A stretch of DNA of 64,000 bases. Source: Jiangella ureilytica (GTDB lineage: Bacteria; Actinomycetota; Actinomycetes; Jiangellales; Jiangellaceae). The position numbers and the translations under genes are program-made. Each line of letters starts with the position of its first letter. The first letter of the stretch is position 1. Location of the stretch: the NCBI RefSeq assembly GCF_004348545.1, contig NZ_SMKL01000004.1, positions 1 to 64,000 of the forward strand. Reading direction: 5' to 3'. Below are positions 57,844 through 62,498 of this stretch, piece after piece. The notes under the pieces were generated by a model that saw nothing but the letters and a program-made list of their open reading frames with translations, made no database searches and was not told where the DNA came from.

Positions 57844-59124
57844 CTACGGCTGGGCCTCGATGACCTCGGGCGGGATGTCGTCGCCGTTCTGAAGGGCGGT
57901 CCACAGCGCGCCGGCGAGCTCGGGATCCCAGGTGACGGTGTTGCCGACGGAGCCGAGTGGGACGGTGATCGTGGCACCGGAGCCGCCGGACACCGAGCCG
58001 ATGCCGCGGGCGAAGGCGAACATGTCCATGGGGCCGGTGTTCTCGTCGAGCACGAGCGCGTCGCCGCCGGCCAGCGCCGTGCGGGTGAGCTCGATGGGAT
58101 TGACCAGCGTGCCGGGCGACAGCGCCTTGTCGGCGATGGCGGAGATCAGCTCGCGCTGGCGCTGCACCCGGCCGATGTCGGAGGTCGGGTCGAAGTGCCG
58201 GGCCCGCGCGTAGCCGAGCGCATTGGGCCCGTCGAGAACCTGGCAGCCGGCCGGCAGGTCGATGTGCGCCTGCTCGTCCTGCACCGGCTCGTCGAGGCAC
58301 ATCTCGACGCCGCCGAGGGCGTCGACGATGCCGGCGAAGCCGCCGAAGCCGATCTGGACGTAGTCGTCGATGGCGACGCCGGTGGACGCCTCGATGGTCT
58401 GCACGAGCAGCGGCGCGCCGCCGAACGCGAACGCGGCGTTGATGCGGTTCTCGCCGTGCCCGGGGATGTCGACGACGGAGTCGCGGGGGATGCTGACGAG
58501 GGCGTTCTGGGCGCCGCCGCCGGGCACGTGCAGCAGCATGATGGTGTCGGTGCGCTGGCCCTCGGTGCTGCCGGTGCCCAGCTCGCTCTGCTCCTCGTCG
58601 GTGAGGTCCTCGCGGCTGTCGGAGCCGACCAGCAGGAACACCCGCCCCTCGGAGAGCGCCGAGCCGTGGTCCTCGGGAATGGCGTCGACCTTCTCGATGC
58701 GGCCCCACACGTACCAGATGAGCACGCCGAGGGCGACGACGATGACCAGCAGGATGGCGAGCAGCCAGCGGAAGAACCGGCCCGCGCCGGAGCGCCGCTT
58801 CTTCGGCCGGGCCGGGGGCTCGGCGCCGTCGCGGCGACGGCGGGTGGGCGGCGGCGTGGCGGGCGGGCCGCCGAGGCCGTCGGTGTCGGCCGGGCCGTAC
58901 GCGTCGGCCGGCATCATGCTGGTGCCGCCGGCCGGTGCGGCCATGGCAGGAGCGGGCTCCGCCGCCTGGGCAGACTCGTCGTCGCGTGGGCTGTGGGCCG
59001 TGCCGCCGCGATAGGAGACGCCGGGCACGTGGCCGGCCTGGTACGTGGTGACCTTGATCTCGGTCCCGCGTGCTCCGCCGTCCGCCCCGGGCGCCGCCAT
59101 GCCTGCATCGCCGTCTGGTCGCAT
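57844..59124 (-). CDS. LytR-CpsA-Psr (LCP) family protein 1
   Basis: A 426-residue membrane-anchored ligase that attaches lipid-linked glycopolymers to peptidoglycan. A cytoplasmic basic, Pro-rich N-terminus (about 1-110) leads to one membrane helix (WLLAILLVIVVALGVLIWYVW) and the extracellular LCP domain. Conserved arginines and aspartates appear in GSDSREDL, QRTDTIMLLHV, SIPRDSVVDIPG, RINAAFAFGG and ARARHFDPTSDIGR. TATGGT lies eight bases before the ATG; a GTG one codon earlier is equally possible. Confidence 0.9.
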   Translation of the reverse strand: MRPDGDAGMAAPGADGGARGTEIKVTTYQAGHVPGVSYRGGTAHSPRDDESAQAAEPAPAMAAPAGGTSMMPADAYGPADTDGLGGPPATPPPTRRRRDGAEPPARPKKRRSGAGRFFRWLLAILLVIVVALGVLIWYVWGRIEKVDAIPEDHGSALSEGRVFLLVGSDSREDLTDEEQSELGTGSTEGQRTDTIMLLHVPGGGAQNALVSIPRDSVVDIPGHGENRINAAFAFGGAPLLVQTIEASTGVAIDDYVQIGFGGFAGIVDALGGVEMCLDEPVQDEQAHIDLPAGCQVLDGPNALGYARARHFDPTSDIGRVQRQRELISAIADKALSPGTLVNPIELTRTALAGGDALVLDENTGPMDMFAFARGIGSVSGGSGATITVPLGSVGNTVTWDPELAGALWTALQNGDDIPPEVIEAQP

Positions 59125-59187
59125 CACGCTCGACCATACCGTCGCCGAACCACTCTGTAACCTGCCGATCGGCACCGGCGCGGCGCG

Positions 59188-59997
59188 TCAGCTGCGCAGG
59201 TCGACGGTGTCGCCGTCGCGCAGGCCGAACTCGAGCGCCGCAGAGCCGCCGTTGACGACCAGTTCGAGGAACCCGGGCCCCGAGCTGCCGGTGACCAGCG
59301 CGGCCGTGCCGGCCGGTACCTCGGACAGGTGGTCGTGGTAGCGCACCTTCGTCCGGCCGACGGCGACCCGGTCGCCCGCCGTCAGGGCCAGGTCGGCGGC
59401 CGTGCACGTGAGCTTGCAGTTGCCGAAGTTGTCGACCAGGGCGACCCGGACGCCGTCGGGCCGGTCGGGGACGGGCAGCTCGACCGGCGACGACGGAACG
59501 GGGCGCTCGTCGAGCACCCACTTCGCCAGCAGCGGCAGGTACCAGAGACTGCGGAACTGCGTGGCGGCGACGTCGACGGCGTCGGGCTCGCCGATGCGGG
59601 CCCACGAGCCGGCCGCGTCGAGCACCGTCGGCGCGTCGGTCACCTCGACCGAGTCGACGCCGAGGTGGCGGCGCACCGGGTCGAGCAGCAGCGGGTCGTA
59701 GGTCGAGAAGACTGTGTGCCGGCCGTGCCGGAACCAGCAGAACGGCGCGCCGTTGGGCCAGCTGCCGTCGCGCGGCGCGACGTTGACCAGCGTTGCCGTC
59801 GGGAAGCCGTCCTCGCCGAGCAGCCGCGTGGACAGCAGCACGTCGAGCAGGGTCAGCCCGGCCGCCTCGAGGGGCGCCGGCCCGCCGAGCGGCAGCACCA
59901 CCGGCGACCGGCCGAACAGCGCGGCCATGCGCGTGGTCAGCCGGGCCTGCGCGTTGGTGTCCGAACAGTCGGTCAGGTACGTGATCGGCGGATACAT
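59188..59997 (-). CDS. Divergent SAM hydrolase / halogenase (DUF62) family protein
   Basis: A 269-residue protein related to S-adenosylmethionine hydroxide adenosyltransferases, which split SAM into adenosine and methionine. The N-terminal ITYLTDCSDTNAQ aligns with the family's LTDFG opening, and LVDNFGNCKLT with the C-terminal IDxFGN motif. The middle VVDPGVG-type loop is replaced by LVNVAPRDGS. Catalytic identity is thus uncertain. The ATG at 59997 follows GAGGGG. A leader peptide and terminator lie upstream, so expression is probably attenuated. Confidence 0.72.
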   Translation of the reverse strand: MYPPITYLTDCSDTNAQARLTTRMAALFGRSPVVLPLGGPAPLEAAGLTLLDVLLSTRLLGEDGFPTATLVNVAPRDGSWPNGAPFCWFRHGRHTVFSTYDPLLLDPVRRHLGVDSVEVTDAPTVLDAAGSWARIGEPDAVDVAATQFRSLWYLPLLAKWVLDERPVPSSPVELPVPDRPDGVRVALVDNFGNCKLTCTAADLALTAGDRVAVGRTKVRYHDHLSEVPAGTAALVTGSSGPGFLELVVNGGSAALEFGLRDGDTVDLRS

Positions 59998-60043
59998 CGT
60001 TCCCCTCGGGGCCGGGAGGTGGGCATGACACGTCATGGGCAAC

Positions 60044-60073
60044 AAAAAAGGGCCCCCGCGTGTGCGGGAGCCC
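60044..60073 (-). terminator. Intrinsic terminator in the 5' leader of the DUF62 gene
   Basis: On the minus strand GGGC-T-CCCGC, loop ACAC, GCGGG-G-GCCC, then six T residues. It lies 47 bases before the DUF62 start and 21 bases after the leader peptide stop, the position of an attenuator. CCGCACA within it can alternatively pair with TGTGCGG in the leader ORF. Confidence 0.75.
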
Positions 60074-60093
60074 GGTGAGCTGACGTGGACGCG

Positions 60094-60141
60094 TCAGGCC
60101 AGCATCGAACGGCCGCACAAGGAGTGCAGCATTCGCATCAT
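60094..60141 (-). CDS. Leader peptide MMRMLHSLCGRSMLA
   Basis: A 15-codon frame between a promoter and an intrinsic terminator, ahead of a SAM-hydrolase-family gene. Four of the 15 residues are Met and one is Cys, fitting ribosome-stalling control by methionine or cysteine supply. Its codons for Cys-Gly (TGTGCGG, 60119 to 60113) are complementary to CCGCACA in the terminator (60067 to 60061), so ribosome position could decide which hairpin forms. It is seen directly; the regulatory role is inferred. Confidence 0.6.
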   Translation of the reverse strand: MMRMLHSLCGRSMLA

Positions 60142-60166
60142 GGCCTGGCCGTGCGTCACGTCACAG

Positions 60167-60196
60167 ACCGTACCTACGCGCGTTCGACGTGGTCAA
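60167..60196 (-). promoter_or_regulatory. Promoter of the leader peptide and DUF62 gene
   Basis: TTGACC (60196 to 60191) and TACGGT (60172 to 60167) on the minus strand, 18 bases apart. Transcription would begin near 60160, about 19 bases before the leader ATG. Confidence 0.6.
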
Positions 60197-60213
60197 GCCG
60201 TACGGTGGCGAGC

Positions 60214-60726
60214 ATGAGTCCCGAGGGCCGGCCGTCGTCGGCCGCGCAGACCAGCCTGTCGCGCATCATGACCGCGCTCGACACCAACCTGCTCGGCACC
60301 GTGCACGGTGGCGTCATCATGAAGCTCGTCGACGACGTCGCCGGCGCGGTGGCGCAGCGGCACTCCGGCGGACCGGCCGTCACGGCGTCGATGGACGAGA
60401 TGACGTTCCTCGAGCCGGTGCACGTCGGCAACCTCGTGCACGCGCACGCGAAGGTGAACTGGACCGGCCGGACGTCCATGGAGGTCGGCGTGCGGGTGGT
60501 CGCCGAGCCCTGGAACGAGGTCCGCCCGGCCACGCCGGTGGCCACGGCGTACCTCGTGTTCGTGGCGCTCGGGGCCGACGGCTCGCCGCGCGAGGTGCCG
60601 CCGGTGCTGCCCGAGACCGACGAGGACCGCCGCCGGTTCGCCGAGGCGGAGATCCGCCGGACGCACCGGCTGGCCCGGCGCGCCGCCATCCTGCGCTCCC
60701 GCGAGCAGGGTCTCGCCGACGTCTGA
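60214..60726 (+). CDS. Acyl-CoA thioesterase (hotdog fold)
   Basis: A 170-residue YciA/BACH-type thioesterase. RIMTALDTNLLGTVHGGVIMKLVDDVAGAVA carries the active-site Asn/Asp region and HGG motif of the family, and MDEMTFLEPVHVGNLVHAHAKVNWTGRTSMEVGVRV is the central hotdog sheet. It hydrolyses acyl-CoA to free acid and CoA. TACGGT ends seven bases before the ATG, so the transcript is probably leaderless. Its promoter overlaps the divergent leader-peptide promoter. Confidence 0.9.
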   Translation: MSPEGRPSSAAQTSLSRIMTALDTNLLGTVHGGVIMKLVDDVAGAVAQRHSGGPAVTASMDEMTFLEPVHVGNLVHAHAKVNWTGRTSMEVGVRVVAEPWNEVRPATPVATAYLVFVALGADGSPREVPPVLPETDEDRRRFAEAEIRRTHRLARRAAILRSREQGLADV

Positions 60727-60905
60727 CGGACGGTTCGAGCGGGTCTGAGTGGGTATGCCTGGCTTCGTCCCCAAGAGTGTGACTCGTGTGACGGAAGAGA
60801 CGCTTGGGTTCGGCGTGCCGCCCGTGAGATCGCGATGCCTTGTGGTGATACTGACGAAGCGGTGAGCGTGGGGACTCGCCGGCTCGTCCGGTTTGGGGGA
60901 TGTGC

Positions 60906-62498
60906 ATGACGACAGCGGCCCGGCCGCCGGATCCTCGGCGCGTGCGCGCCCGCCGTGAAGCCATCGCCGCGCTCAAGGCCCAGCGGGCCGAGGCGGCGCG
61001 CTTCCGCCGTTCGGTGACGCTCATGGCCATGTCCGTCGTCGCGCCGGGGAGCGCGCAGCTGGTCGCCGGGCACAAGAAGACCGGCAAGATCGCCCTGGGG
61101 ATCTACGGTGGCCTGCTCGGCGTCACGGCGCTGGTGCTCTGGCTGGTGCCGCTGCAGGACCTCGCCGGGCTGGCCGTCCGGCCGTGGCTGCTGACGGCGT
61201 TCAAGCTGCTGGCGTTCGGAGTGGCCGCGGCCTGGGTCGTGCTGCTGCTCGACGCCTGGCGGCTCGGCCACCCGCCCGGCCTGAACCAGAAGCACCGGCT
61301 CATCATGATCGGCGCGACGCTGGCCCTGGCGGCCATGGTGTCGACCCCGTTCGTCGTCGCCGCCCGGTACGCCACGGCCGCCCACGACGCCGTCGTCGAG
61401 ATGTTCCCGTCGGGCGAGGTCGCGGCCGCCAGCGACGGCCGGCTCAACATCCTGCTGCTCGGCGTCGACGCCGGCGACGGCCGCGTCGGGGTGCGACCCG
61501 ACAGCATCAACCTGGTGTCCATCGACGTCCGCACCGGCGAGCCGGCGATGATCAGCCTGCCGCGCAACCTCGAGAACGCCCGGTTCGCCGACGGCACCCC
61601 CGCCGACGACGAGTTCCCGCGCGGCTTCTCCGGCGACGGCGAGGGCGACGCGTCCGACTACATGCTCAACGCGACGTGGACGTTCGGCGAGGAGAACCCG
61701 GAGCTGTTCGAGGGCCCGTCCGGCCCCGGCCCCACCGCCGTCAAGCAGGCCGTCGAGGGCACTCTCGGCGTGCCGGTGCACTACTACGTCGCCGTCGACC
61801 TGCAGGGCTTCCGCGACATCATCGACGCCATCGGCGGCATCACCATCCGGGTCAACGAGGAGCTGCCCATCGGCGAAAAGGGCCGCGTGCTCGAGCCAGG
61901 GCTGCAGGAGCTCGACGGCTACCACGCGCTCTGGTACGCCCGCTCGCGCGAGAGCTCGTCGGACTACGCCCGCATGGCCCGGCAGCGCTGCGTCCTCGGC
62001 GCGCTGGTCGACCAGGCCGACCCGCAGACCGTGCTGTCGAACTTCGTGGACCTCGCCGATGCGTCGAAGTCGGTCATCACCACCGACATCCCGCAGCAGG
62101 ACCTCGCCAACCTCGTCGGGCTGGCGATGAAGGCGAAGGACCAGGACATCACGTCGCTGCAGTTCGTGCCGCCGCTCATCGTGCCGGCCGACCCCGACAT
62201 CGGCCTCATCCACGACGAGGTCGACGCGCTGCTCGACGGCGACGCGAAGCCGGCCCCGTCGGAGTCGGCCCCGTCGGAGTCGTCCGCGGAGTCGGAGGAG
62301 CAGCCGGCGGACGAGCCGGCCGAGCAACCGGCCGGCGAGCCGAGCGAGGACCGGCCGAGCGAGGACCGGCCGAGCGAGGACCGGCCGAGCGACGAGTCGA
62401 GCGAGGAACCGGACGACGAACCCCGCGACGAGCCGAGCCAGGACGAGGACGACCCGGCGGACCCGGTCGAGATGTCGTCGGCCTGCTCCTACGAGTAG
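60906..62498 (+). CDS. LytR-CpsA-Psr (LCP) family protein 2
   Basis: A 530-residue LCP protein with three or four N-terminal membrane helices (about 35-160) instead of one. The extracellular LCP domain follows: LNILLLGVDAGDGRVGVRPDSINLVSID, SLPRNLENARF, GFRDIIDAIGGITIRVNE and HALWYARSRESSSDYARMARQR. The C-terminal 80 residues are an acidic tail with PSEDR repeated in tandem (15-bp DNA unit at about 62339-62390). The ATG at 60906 is six bases after GGGGG, whereas the ATG at 60900 would touch it. Confidence 0.88.
   Translation: MTTAARPPDPRRVRARREAIAALKAQRAEAARFRRSVTLMAMSVVAPGSAQLVAGHKKTGKIALGIYGGLLGVTALVLWLVPLQDLAGLAVRPWLLTAFKLLAFGVAAAWVVLLLDAWRLGHPPGLNQKHRLIMIGATLALAAMVSTPFVVAARYATAAHDAVVEMFPSGEVAAASDGRLNILLLGVDAGDGRVGVRPDSINLVSIDVRTGEPAMISLPRNLENARFADGTPADDEFPRGFSGDGEGDASDYMLNATWTFGEENPELFEGPSGPGPTAVKQAVEGTLGVPVHYYVAVDLQGFRDIIDAIGGITIRVNEELPIGEKGRVLEPGLQELDGYHALWYARSRESSSDYARMARQRCVLGALVDQADPQTVLSNFVDLADASKSVITTDIPQQDLANLVGLAMKAKDQDITSLQFVPPLIVPADPDIGLIHDEVDALLDGDAKPAPSESAPSESSAESEEQPADEPAEQPAGEPSEDRPSEDRPSEDRPSDESSEEPDDEPRDEPSQDEDDPADPVEMSSACSYE

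Follow-up and report, generated by a model that had tools for sequence, protein, structure and literature searches.

A conserved leaderless ORF with methionine codons around an invariant CGA: a candidate transcription attenuator of SAM-hydrolase-like genes in actinobacteria

The window analysed here, a stretch of 64,000 nucleotides from Jiangella ureilytica (contig NZ_SMKL01000004.1), carries a gene for a SAM-hydrolase-like protein on its minus strand. Read 5′ to 3′ on that strand, a promoter, a short leader ORF, a terminator and the gene follow one another, and their positions were found again in the sequence:

60191..60196, minus strand: −35 box TTGACC, kept in most Jiangella relatives (L003 is without the box)
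60167..60172, minus strand: −10 box TACGGT, of the TANNNT type
60094..60159, minus strand: leaderless leader ORF with GTG at the predicted transcription start, 21 codons (MTHGQAMMRMLHSLCGRSMLA) plus TGA; layout conserved in relatives
60096-60094, minus strand: leader stop codon TGA
60127..60141, minus strand: codon core ATG ATG CGA ATG CTG (M M R M L)
60106..60135, minus strand: protective hairpin CGAATGCTGCAC / GTGCGGCCGTTCG, predicted from folds and the Jiangella alignment to mask the antiterminator element when no ribosome is present
60113..60119, minus strand: antiterminator 5′ element TGTGCGG, from sequence and folding
60061..60067, minus strand: antiterminator 3′ element CCGCACA, overlapping the 5′ arm and loop of the terminator
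60050..60073, minus strand: intrinsic terminator hairpin of 10 pairs with a loop of 4, conserved in the Jiangella alignment
60044..60049, minus strand: terminator U run TTTTTT
60002..60007, minus strand: Shine-Dalgarno-like GAGGGG ahead of the gene
59188..59997, minus strand: SAM-hydrolase-like gene of 269 aa, start ATG 59997, with a SAM_HAT_C domain and the fold of SAM hydrolases and halogenases; catalytic triad not conserved
60214-60726, plus strand: divergent 4HBT thioesterase (PF03061, by domain search), the upstream neighbour

An earlier sequence-only reading had described a promoter (TTGACC-N18-TACGGT, hence a spacer of 18 nt), a terminator with six T residues and a DUF62 gene in this order on the minus strand, and each lies where that reading had put it. 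The exact complementarity it reported between TGTGCGG (60119-60113) and CCGCACA (60067-60061) was confirmed in the sequence. Its statement that no minus-strand gene upstream requires the terminator also holds, since the upstream neighbour is the divergent thioesterase. The leader ORF was right in frame and stop but probably not in length: instead of 15 codons from ATG 60141, the sequence most likely contains 21 from GTG 60159, 7 nt past the −10 box. Within the leader, GTGCGG begins 17 nt past the C of CGA, and the GCAC-N5-GTGC of the protective hairpin is conserved across the Jiangella alignment while its loop varies. The same-strand downstream neighbour of the SAM-hydrolase-like gene is a LytR_cpsA_psr gene.

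Taken alone, the J. ureilytica site is unremarkable. A strict promoter scan at the locus found no promoter, and terminator-like sites in 4 kb are at chance level (one, against a shuffle mean of 0.7). It is conservation that makes the observation real.

Distribution and codon core of the leader

Loci with a relative of the protein were oriented (102 in all), and those sharing identical upstream sequence were dropped. Comparison of the upstream sequences placed the leader at 56 of the 57 distinct actinobacterial loci with the gene, 11 of them in Jiangella, 12 in Kribbella, two in Actinospica, one in Catellatospora and 30 in Streptomycetaceae. Conservation of the peptide and of the stems had been set beforehand as the check on the sequence-only reading, which came through it, with a leader ORF of the same core at these 56 loci. 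The sole leader-less actinobacterial locus is a decayed copy in Kitasatospora sp. MBT63 (L062, L141): along with the leader, the N-terminal half of the gene is gone, and the C-terminal half is retained.

The closest named relatives are found in five Jiangella species (66-86% identity), followed by Actinospica at 55%, and a full-length ortholog is present in 11 of 12 Jiangella genomes. Elsewhere the gene is rare: a class-wide sample of 393 genomes yielded a strong ortholog in 12, with the leader pattern in all 12; 16 of 394 Streptomycetaceae genomes have the gene (one copy truncated), as do one of 300 genomes of Catellatospora's family, namely Catellatospora itself, and 4 of 197 in Actinospica's order. 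The leader precedes all five matches from the latter two scans (L151 included). The gene is thus scattered in actinobacteria, and intact copies come with the leader. Searches of plasmids and phages gave no relative of the protein. Among 21 distinct non-actinobacterial homologs, which have 29-39% identity and come from Patescibacteria and two bins without a phylum in the title, the core is absent from the 420 nt upstream (167 nt in L051). The Patescibacteria homologs (L040-L053, L056-L061, L064), at 29-39% identity, suggest an old transfer between very distant groups.

The leader pattern was found in 38 of the 393 class genomes, comprising the 12 with orthologs and 26 others, and a reversed control pattern in 10. 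Occurrence of the same leader ahead of other genes was considered and rejected: none of 19 non-ortholog loci has a start placed at a −10 box, against 11 of 11 in Jiangella, a check that took in 19 of the 26 genomes, the other seven having no locus.

In all 56 leaders an in-frame ATG or GTG lies 6-8 nt past a TANNNT box, at exactly 7 nt in 52 of them. With a start codon at this distance from the −10 box the RNA should begin at the start codon itself, which would make the ORF leaderless. Leader promoters were called by consensus only. The start was sought in the frame of the core, so that a start-core distance in multiples of three is given by construction; its placement after the −10 box is independent. 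From start to CGA the distance spans 21 to 33 nt. Examples of the peptides are MQHTATLAMMRMMPPPPEALR (Streptomyces), MTWYAAMRMLSPRCGGL (Kribbella) and MTSPEPQPSLRMMRPVGRETAGA (Catellatospora). The stop codon is TAG in 43 leaders, TGA in 10 and TAA in two; at L054 both leader and gene are frame-shifted.

Common to all leaders is the core (A/C)TG CGA ATG (A/C)TG. The search pattern itself demanded this core, but it caught every ortholog whose start is intact, and the invariance is therefore real within the set. Around CGA, Met occupies all four flanking codons in 32 leaders, three in 10, two in 13 and one in a single leader; regulatory codons are accordingly over-represented, with two to four Met around CGA in 55 of 56. 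The sequence-only reading had offered methionine or cysteine as the signal. Methionine stands, with ATG directly after CGA in 56 of 56 leaders, and cysteine is ruled out as the common signal because Cys is not conserved among them. Of the 29 intact Streptomycetaceae leaders, 28 have no Cys and L138 has a single one, ahead of the core; the two Actinospica leaders and that of Catellatospora have none, and in two of Kribbella Phe or Tyr takes its place. None of the 55 intact leaders has a run of Cys codons, the maximum being one Cys codon per leader.

Competing pairings and the predicted switch

Between ORF and gene, a terminator was detected automatically in 52 of the 55 leaders tried (L054 was omitted). 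In two of the misses (L016, L019) the hairpin is present and the U run weak; in the third (L021) the sequence ends ahead of the site. The antiterminator pairs are GTGCGG/CCGCAC in Jiangella, CGGAGG/CCTCCG in Streptomycetaceae and TCGGGA/TCCCGA in Catellatospora, and an imperfect pair containing GGAGG in Kribbella. The paired segments hardly vary within a clade and are not alignable between clades. Clade-specific as they are, these antiterminator sequences each start just past the edge of a ribosome that has CGA in its P site.

For 52 leaders, RNA was folded from the ribosome front edge to the end of the terminator loop, the 3′ arm being not yet made; L016, L019, L021 and L054 lie outside this main set, and L016 and L019 were folded separately, giving 54 in total. 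With the ribosome on the core, the 5′ arm of the terminator has a competing upstream partner in all 54, with a probability of at least 0.64. Mean pairing of the 5′ arm with upstream RNA, CGA being in the P site, is 0.79 in Jiangella (n=11), 0.82 in Kribbella (n=11) and 0.79 in Streptomycetaceae and Actinospica (n=30). In the same order of groups it is 0.37, 0.28 and 0.11 with the ribosome at the stop codon, 0.42, 0.21 and 0.08 without a ribosome, and 0.54, 0.52 and 0.32 for shuffled sequences. Shuffles are beaten at 5/100 or better by 35 of the 52 leaders, namely 25 of 30 in Streptomycetaceae and Actinospica, 8 of 11 in Kribbella and 2 of 11 in Jiangella. For the J. ureilytica leader the values are 0.80 stalled, 0.59 at the stop and 0.57 without a ribosome, and 9 of 100 shuffles reach the stalled value. 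The default OFF state is weak in some leaders, as the ribosome-free arm is held upstream at this 0.57 in J. ureilytica, at 0.71 in L139 and at 0.65 in L019.

When the ribosome edge was moved along the RNA, pairing was kept as long as the first free base lay no further on than CGA+19, and dropped beyond. At +22 it falls to 0.12 in the Streptomycetaceae group (from 0.79 at +19) and to 0.37 in Jiangella; Kribbella retains 0.64, so that there a ribosome which has advanced by two more codons still permits some pairing. Pairing persists with later edges in Catellatospora (0.92 at +26) and is then 0.18 with the ribosome at the stop. Edges far upstream (CGA+3 to +8) are permissive but less so, with means of 0.52-0.61 (Kribbella and Jiangella to +5, the Streptomycetaceae group to +8). 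Counted from the first base of the codon in the P site, a ribosome's front edge lies at 16-17 nt. Combined with the limit at CGA+19, this makes the ATG after CGA and the next ATG or CTG the permissive A-site codons. The limit falls right after the last Met codon in Streptomycetaceae.

At equilibrium, the full-length RNA forms the terminator at 0.80 or more in every state, the stalled ribosome included. Antitermination must therefore be kinetic.

In ribosome-free folds the A within CGA has a mean pairing of 0.94 in Jiangella (10 of 11 leaders) and of 0.83 in a group of 30 that takes in Streptomycetaceae and the Catellatospora leader; it is paired in Jiangella and in most Streptomycetaceae, and its usual partner is a downstream UUCG. 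The corresponding values are 0.10 for Kribbella, where UUCG occurs in one of 12 leaders, and 0.00 for Catellatospora. Pairing can account for the CGA in two clades, not in all.

The downstream protein and its neighbours

Pfam recognises the C-terminal SAM_HAT domain alone in 30 of 30 aligned members and does not recognise the N-terminal domain; there is a weak unrelated match in one of the 30 besides. An AlphaFold model built from the 30-sequence alignment has a mean pLDDT of 91.6. A structure search with it returned 26 PDB chains at E <=0.001, all of the SAM hydrolase/chlorinase/fluorinase family and matched over the whole length. The best is 2zbv_C (Z 21.1, 239 residues, rmsd 3.5 A), and the next fold has a Z of 6.4. 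On this modelling the fold is certain. An hhalign comparison of 30 members with 11 canonical proteins indicates that the catalytic residues, which from alignment and motifs we take to be the triad, are not kept: in an alignment that may be shifted by one or two residues, Asp corresponds to the invariant Ala74, His to the invariant Arg149 and Arg to a gap in the J. ureilytica protein. An invariant Asn72 lies close to the aligned Asp position. The water-activating triad of SAM hydrolases is given as D68-R75-H127 in PH0463 numbering (PMC4859513). SAM hydroxide adenosyltransferases, (R)-SAM hydrolases, chlorinases and fluorinases (PF01887/PF20257) thus have the whole-chain fold and the C-terminal domain in common with the protein here, but differ in that its N-terminal domain is unseen by Pfam and its D68-R75-H127 replaced (PMC4859513). 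Assignment to a SAM-cleaving family, made in the sequence-only reading, is borne out by fold and C-terminal domain and not by the known triad, and cleavage of SAM to adenosine and methionine by this protein is putative.

Enzymes with the leader are poor in methionine, with 34 Met among 14,603 internal residues (0.23%) and 23 of 53 without any; the counts leave out L021, L054 and L055. Leader-less homologs have 85 in 5,532 and upstream genes 99 in 6,973; as the proteins are related, Fisher p-values for these counts and for those of the transporter below are not taken as probabilities. The enzymes' Cys content, at 1.53%, is not reduced. Canonical actinobacterial SAM hydrolases are Met-poor too (17 of 4,722 residues, 0.36%, in 18 proteins, e.g. 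L114 and L117), so a low Met content is no peculiarity of the enzymes encoded behind the leader.

In Streptomycetaceae and Actinospica (e.g. L020, L007) the gene is followed by an amino-acid ABC transporter of the polar type (SBP_bac_3, permease, ATPase), and the substrate-binding protein was detected at 30 of the 56 leader loci. Trimmed transporter subunits contain 10 Met in 6711 residues against 10 in 1052 in paralogs of three genomes, 23 in 4148 against 61 in 2756, and 44 in 4384 against 56 in 1661, that is 0.15, 0.55 and 1.00% against 0.95, 2.21 and 3.37%; untrimmed, the subunits have 0.36, 0.50 and 1.21%. Paralogs with no Met at all number 2 of 8 ATPases and 2 of 16 permeases. In Catellatospora tritici (L016:4009-6614) a second metK, a B3/4-domain protein and a methyltransferase lie downstream of the leader-controlled gene, a gene content that suggests a SAM-related cluster. 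A transporter or metK neighbour was not evident at the Jiangella and Kribbella loci looked at; gene calls for neighbours were rough (a GC3 rule, 20 loci).

Met-poor operon proteins are broadly what would be expected of genes made under methionine scarcity, and methionine-poor cyanobacterial proteins were reportedly described in work of 1989. metK fits less simply: its second copy in Catellatospora is not visibly Met-poor, and as a consumer of methionine it is an odd partner for a methionine-starvation response.

A methionine-sensing attenuator and its alternatives

The ribosome-mediated attenuation envisaged in the sequence-only reading is supported by the conserved ORF core (56 of 57 loci) and by the competing pairing (54 of 54 folded leaders). 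We consider it likely, at a probability of roughly three in four, that the leader is an attenuator of transcription which senses charged methionyl-tRNA and turns the gene on when methionine is short. The transcript would open with the start codon of the leader ORF, and 70S ribosomes would initiate on this leaderless RNA. The default state would be off: if the leader is empty, or its ribosome has run on to the stop codon, the antiterminator element would be masked or covered and the terminator would form. Under methionine scarcity the ribosome would halt on the core, holding CGA in its P site and the next ATG in its A site, so that its front edge stops just ahead of the antiterminator element. 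Thus freed, this element would capture the emerging 5′ arm of the terminator, and RNA polymerase would read through into the gene. Slow I-A wobble of the P-site CGA probably makes decoding of the ATG that comes next more sensitive. Wobble decoding renders CGA inhibitory in yeast, where a P-site CGA affects entry of the next tRNA (PMC6301793); by analogy, CGA may act on decoding of the next codon in actinobacteria as well. The product would be a divergent protein of the SAM-hydrolase fold that helps to supply methionine, e.g. from SAM or a related sulfonium compound.

The same attenuator might respond to another stall signal. A small molecule such as SAM or a related metabolite could arrest a short nascent chain ending in (M/L)-R, an improbable reading in our view. 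It would suit a gene that by its fold belongs to a SAM-using family, an Arg step that matters, as the invariant CGA implies, and the geometry, which matches a stall with Arg in the P site. However, the sole residue kept between clades is the one preceding Arg (M, in two leaders L), the sequence ahead of that residue varies (QHTATLA, THGQA, TWYAA, SPEPQPS), the chain at Arg would be only 8-12 residues long, and the need for CGA as a codon stays unexplained. Sensing of arginine through the CGA codon is very improbable. Apart from Met, Arg is the only invariant residue in the core, and stalling at CGA as the A-site codon would likewise free the antiterminator (first free base about CGA+13). Yet arginine starvation needs no CGA in place of the common CGC or CGG; of the 1188 Arg codons in the downstream genes, 43 (3.6%) are CGA. 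A single Arg also stands against two to four Met codons in nearly all leaders, and the Met-poor operon proteins, the SAM-family gene and, once, the metK neighbour are further points against arginine.

Two further readings do without sensing by a ribosome. SAM riboswitches (S-box and others) would couple transcription to SAM or methionine status, and the core could be part of a metabolite-binding RNA that reads as codons by chance. This would agree with a sequence core that is short and strict, and with the pairing of CGAA to UUCG in most Jiangella and Streptomycetaceae leaders. Outside the core codons, however, no sequence or structure was seen that is common to all clades; the A of CGA is mostly unpaired in Kribbella and Catellatospora, and in all leaders transcription is predicted to start at an in-frame start codon, the core being read as codons. 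A search of 59000-61000 of the J. ureilytica stretch against all 4227 Rfam families at E up to 1 gave three unrelated weak matches, all under their gathering scores. We give a riboswitch marginally less credence than arginine sensing, and least of all to a constitutive partial terminator beside an unrelated short ORF, with no switching. The latter would fit the full-length RNA, which always favours the terminator, and the Jiangella pairings, which are only modestly above shuffles. Against it, promoter and ORF core are kept together at 56 of 57 loci, and the competing pairing recurs in every folded leader, across five groups with differing antiterminator sequences.

A fuller picture may be sketched, tentatively and with the odds against it as a whole: CGA-AUG would be a dedicated sensor, in which the inosine-adenine wobble in the P site makes decoding of the following AUG highly responsive to Met-tRNA charging and one or two Met codons suffice for attenuation. 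The operon, itself Met-poor, would scavenge methionine by importing an amino acid such as a sulfonium compound, and the SAM-hydrolase-fold enzyme with its altered active site would free methionine from the import or from SAM. Attenuator, Met-poor operon proteins and, in some lineages, transporter or metK neighbours together would show when the cell wants this protein, which makes its role directly testable.

Like the present one, the actinobacterial attenuators of trpE, trpS, leuS and ilvB have a short and often leaderless ORF, with codons for the amino acid that they sense, and hairpins that compete; several also have an intrinsic terminator (PMC8079986, PMC1262725). Here, in contrast, Met codons surround an invariant CGA, and the target is a SAM-hydrolase-like gene instead of, as those sources have it, a biosynthesis or tRNA-synthetase gene. 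The metL leader before metNIQ of Streptomyces lividans is likewise leaderless, has Met codons and precedes a methionine-uptake operon, but it consists of 29 residues ending in CMCRRMCAF, and the authors who described it found no typical intrinsic terminator (PMC8079986); the pattern of its end occurs in none of 61 Streptomycetaceae genomes. Mycobacterial and other Cys leader peptides are likewise leader ORFs for a sulfur amino acid in actinobacteria. Close to their stop, however, they have Cys codons in runs, and those of Mycobacterium lack a conserved terminator (PMC1262725); the leaders described here do have a terminator, and their Cys is not conserved.

As a conserved, leaderless attenuator built on methionine codons, the system would thus belong to a known general kind; the comparisons suggest that the leader family, the CGA-ATG core and the target are themselves new. 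They were not found in the open-access literature. The eight leaders listed for S. lividans in PMC8079986 do not include the present one, and PMC1262725 reports no conserved structure upstream of methionine operons. Four peptides (from Jiangella, two Streptomycetaceae types and Catellatospora) had no match among the NCBIfam leader-peptide families. Should CGA-AUG work as proposed, bacteria would be tuning a leader peptide by an awkward P-site wobble, comparable with the inhibitory CGA codon pairs described for yeast (PMC6301793).

A 16-nt perfect palindrome, GCTTCGCTAGCGAAGC, spans the leader stop in most Streptomycetaceae leaders (L028, L031 and L140 are the exceptions). It could act as an RNA hairpin only, or be a DNA-binding site too.
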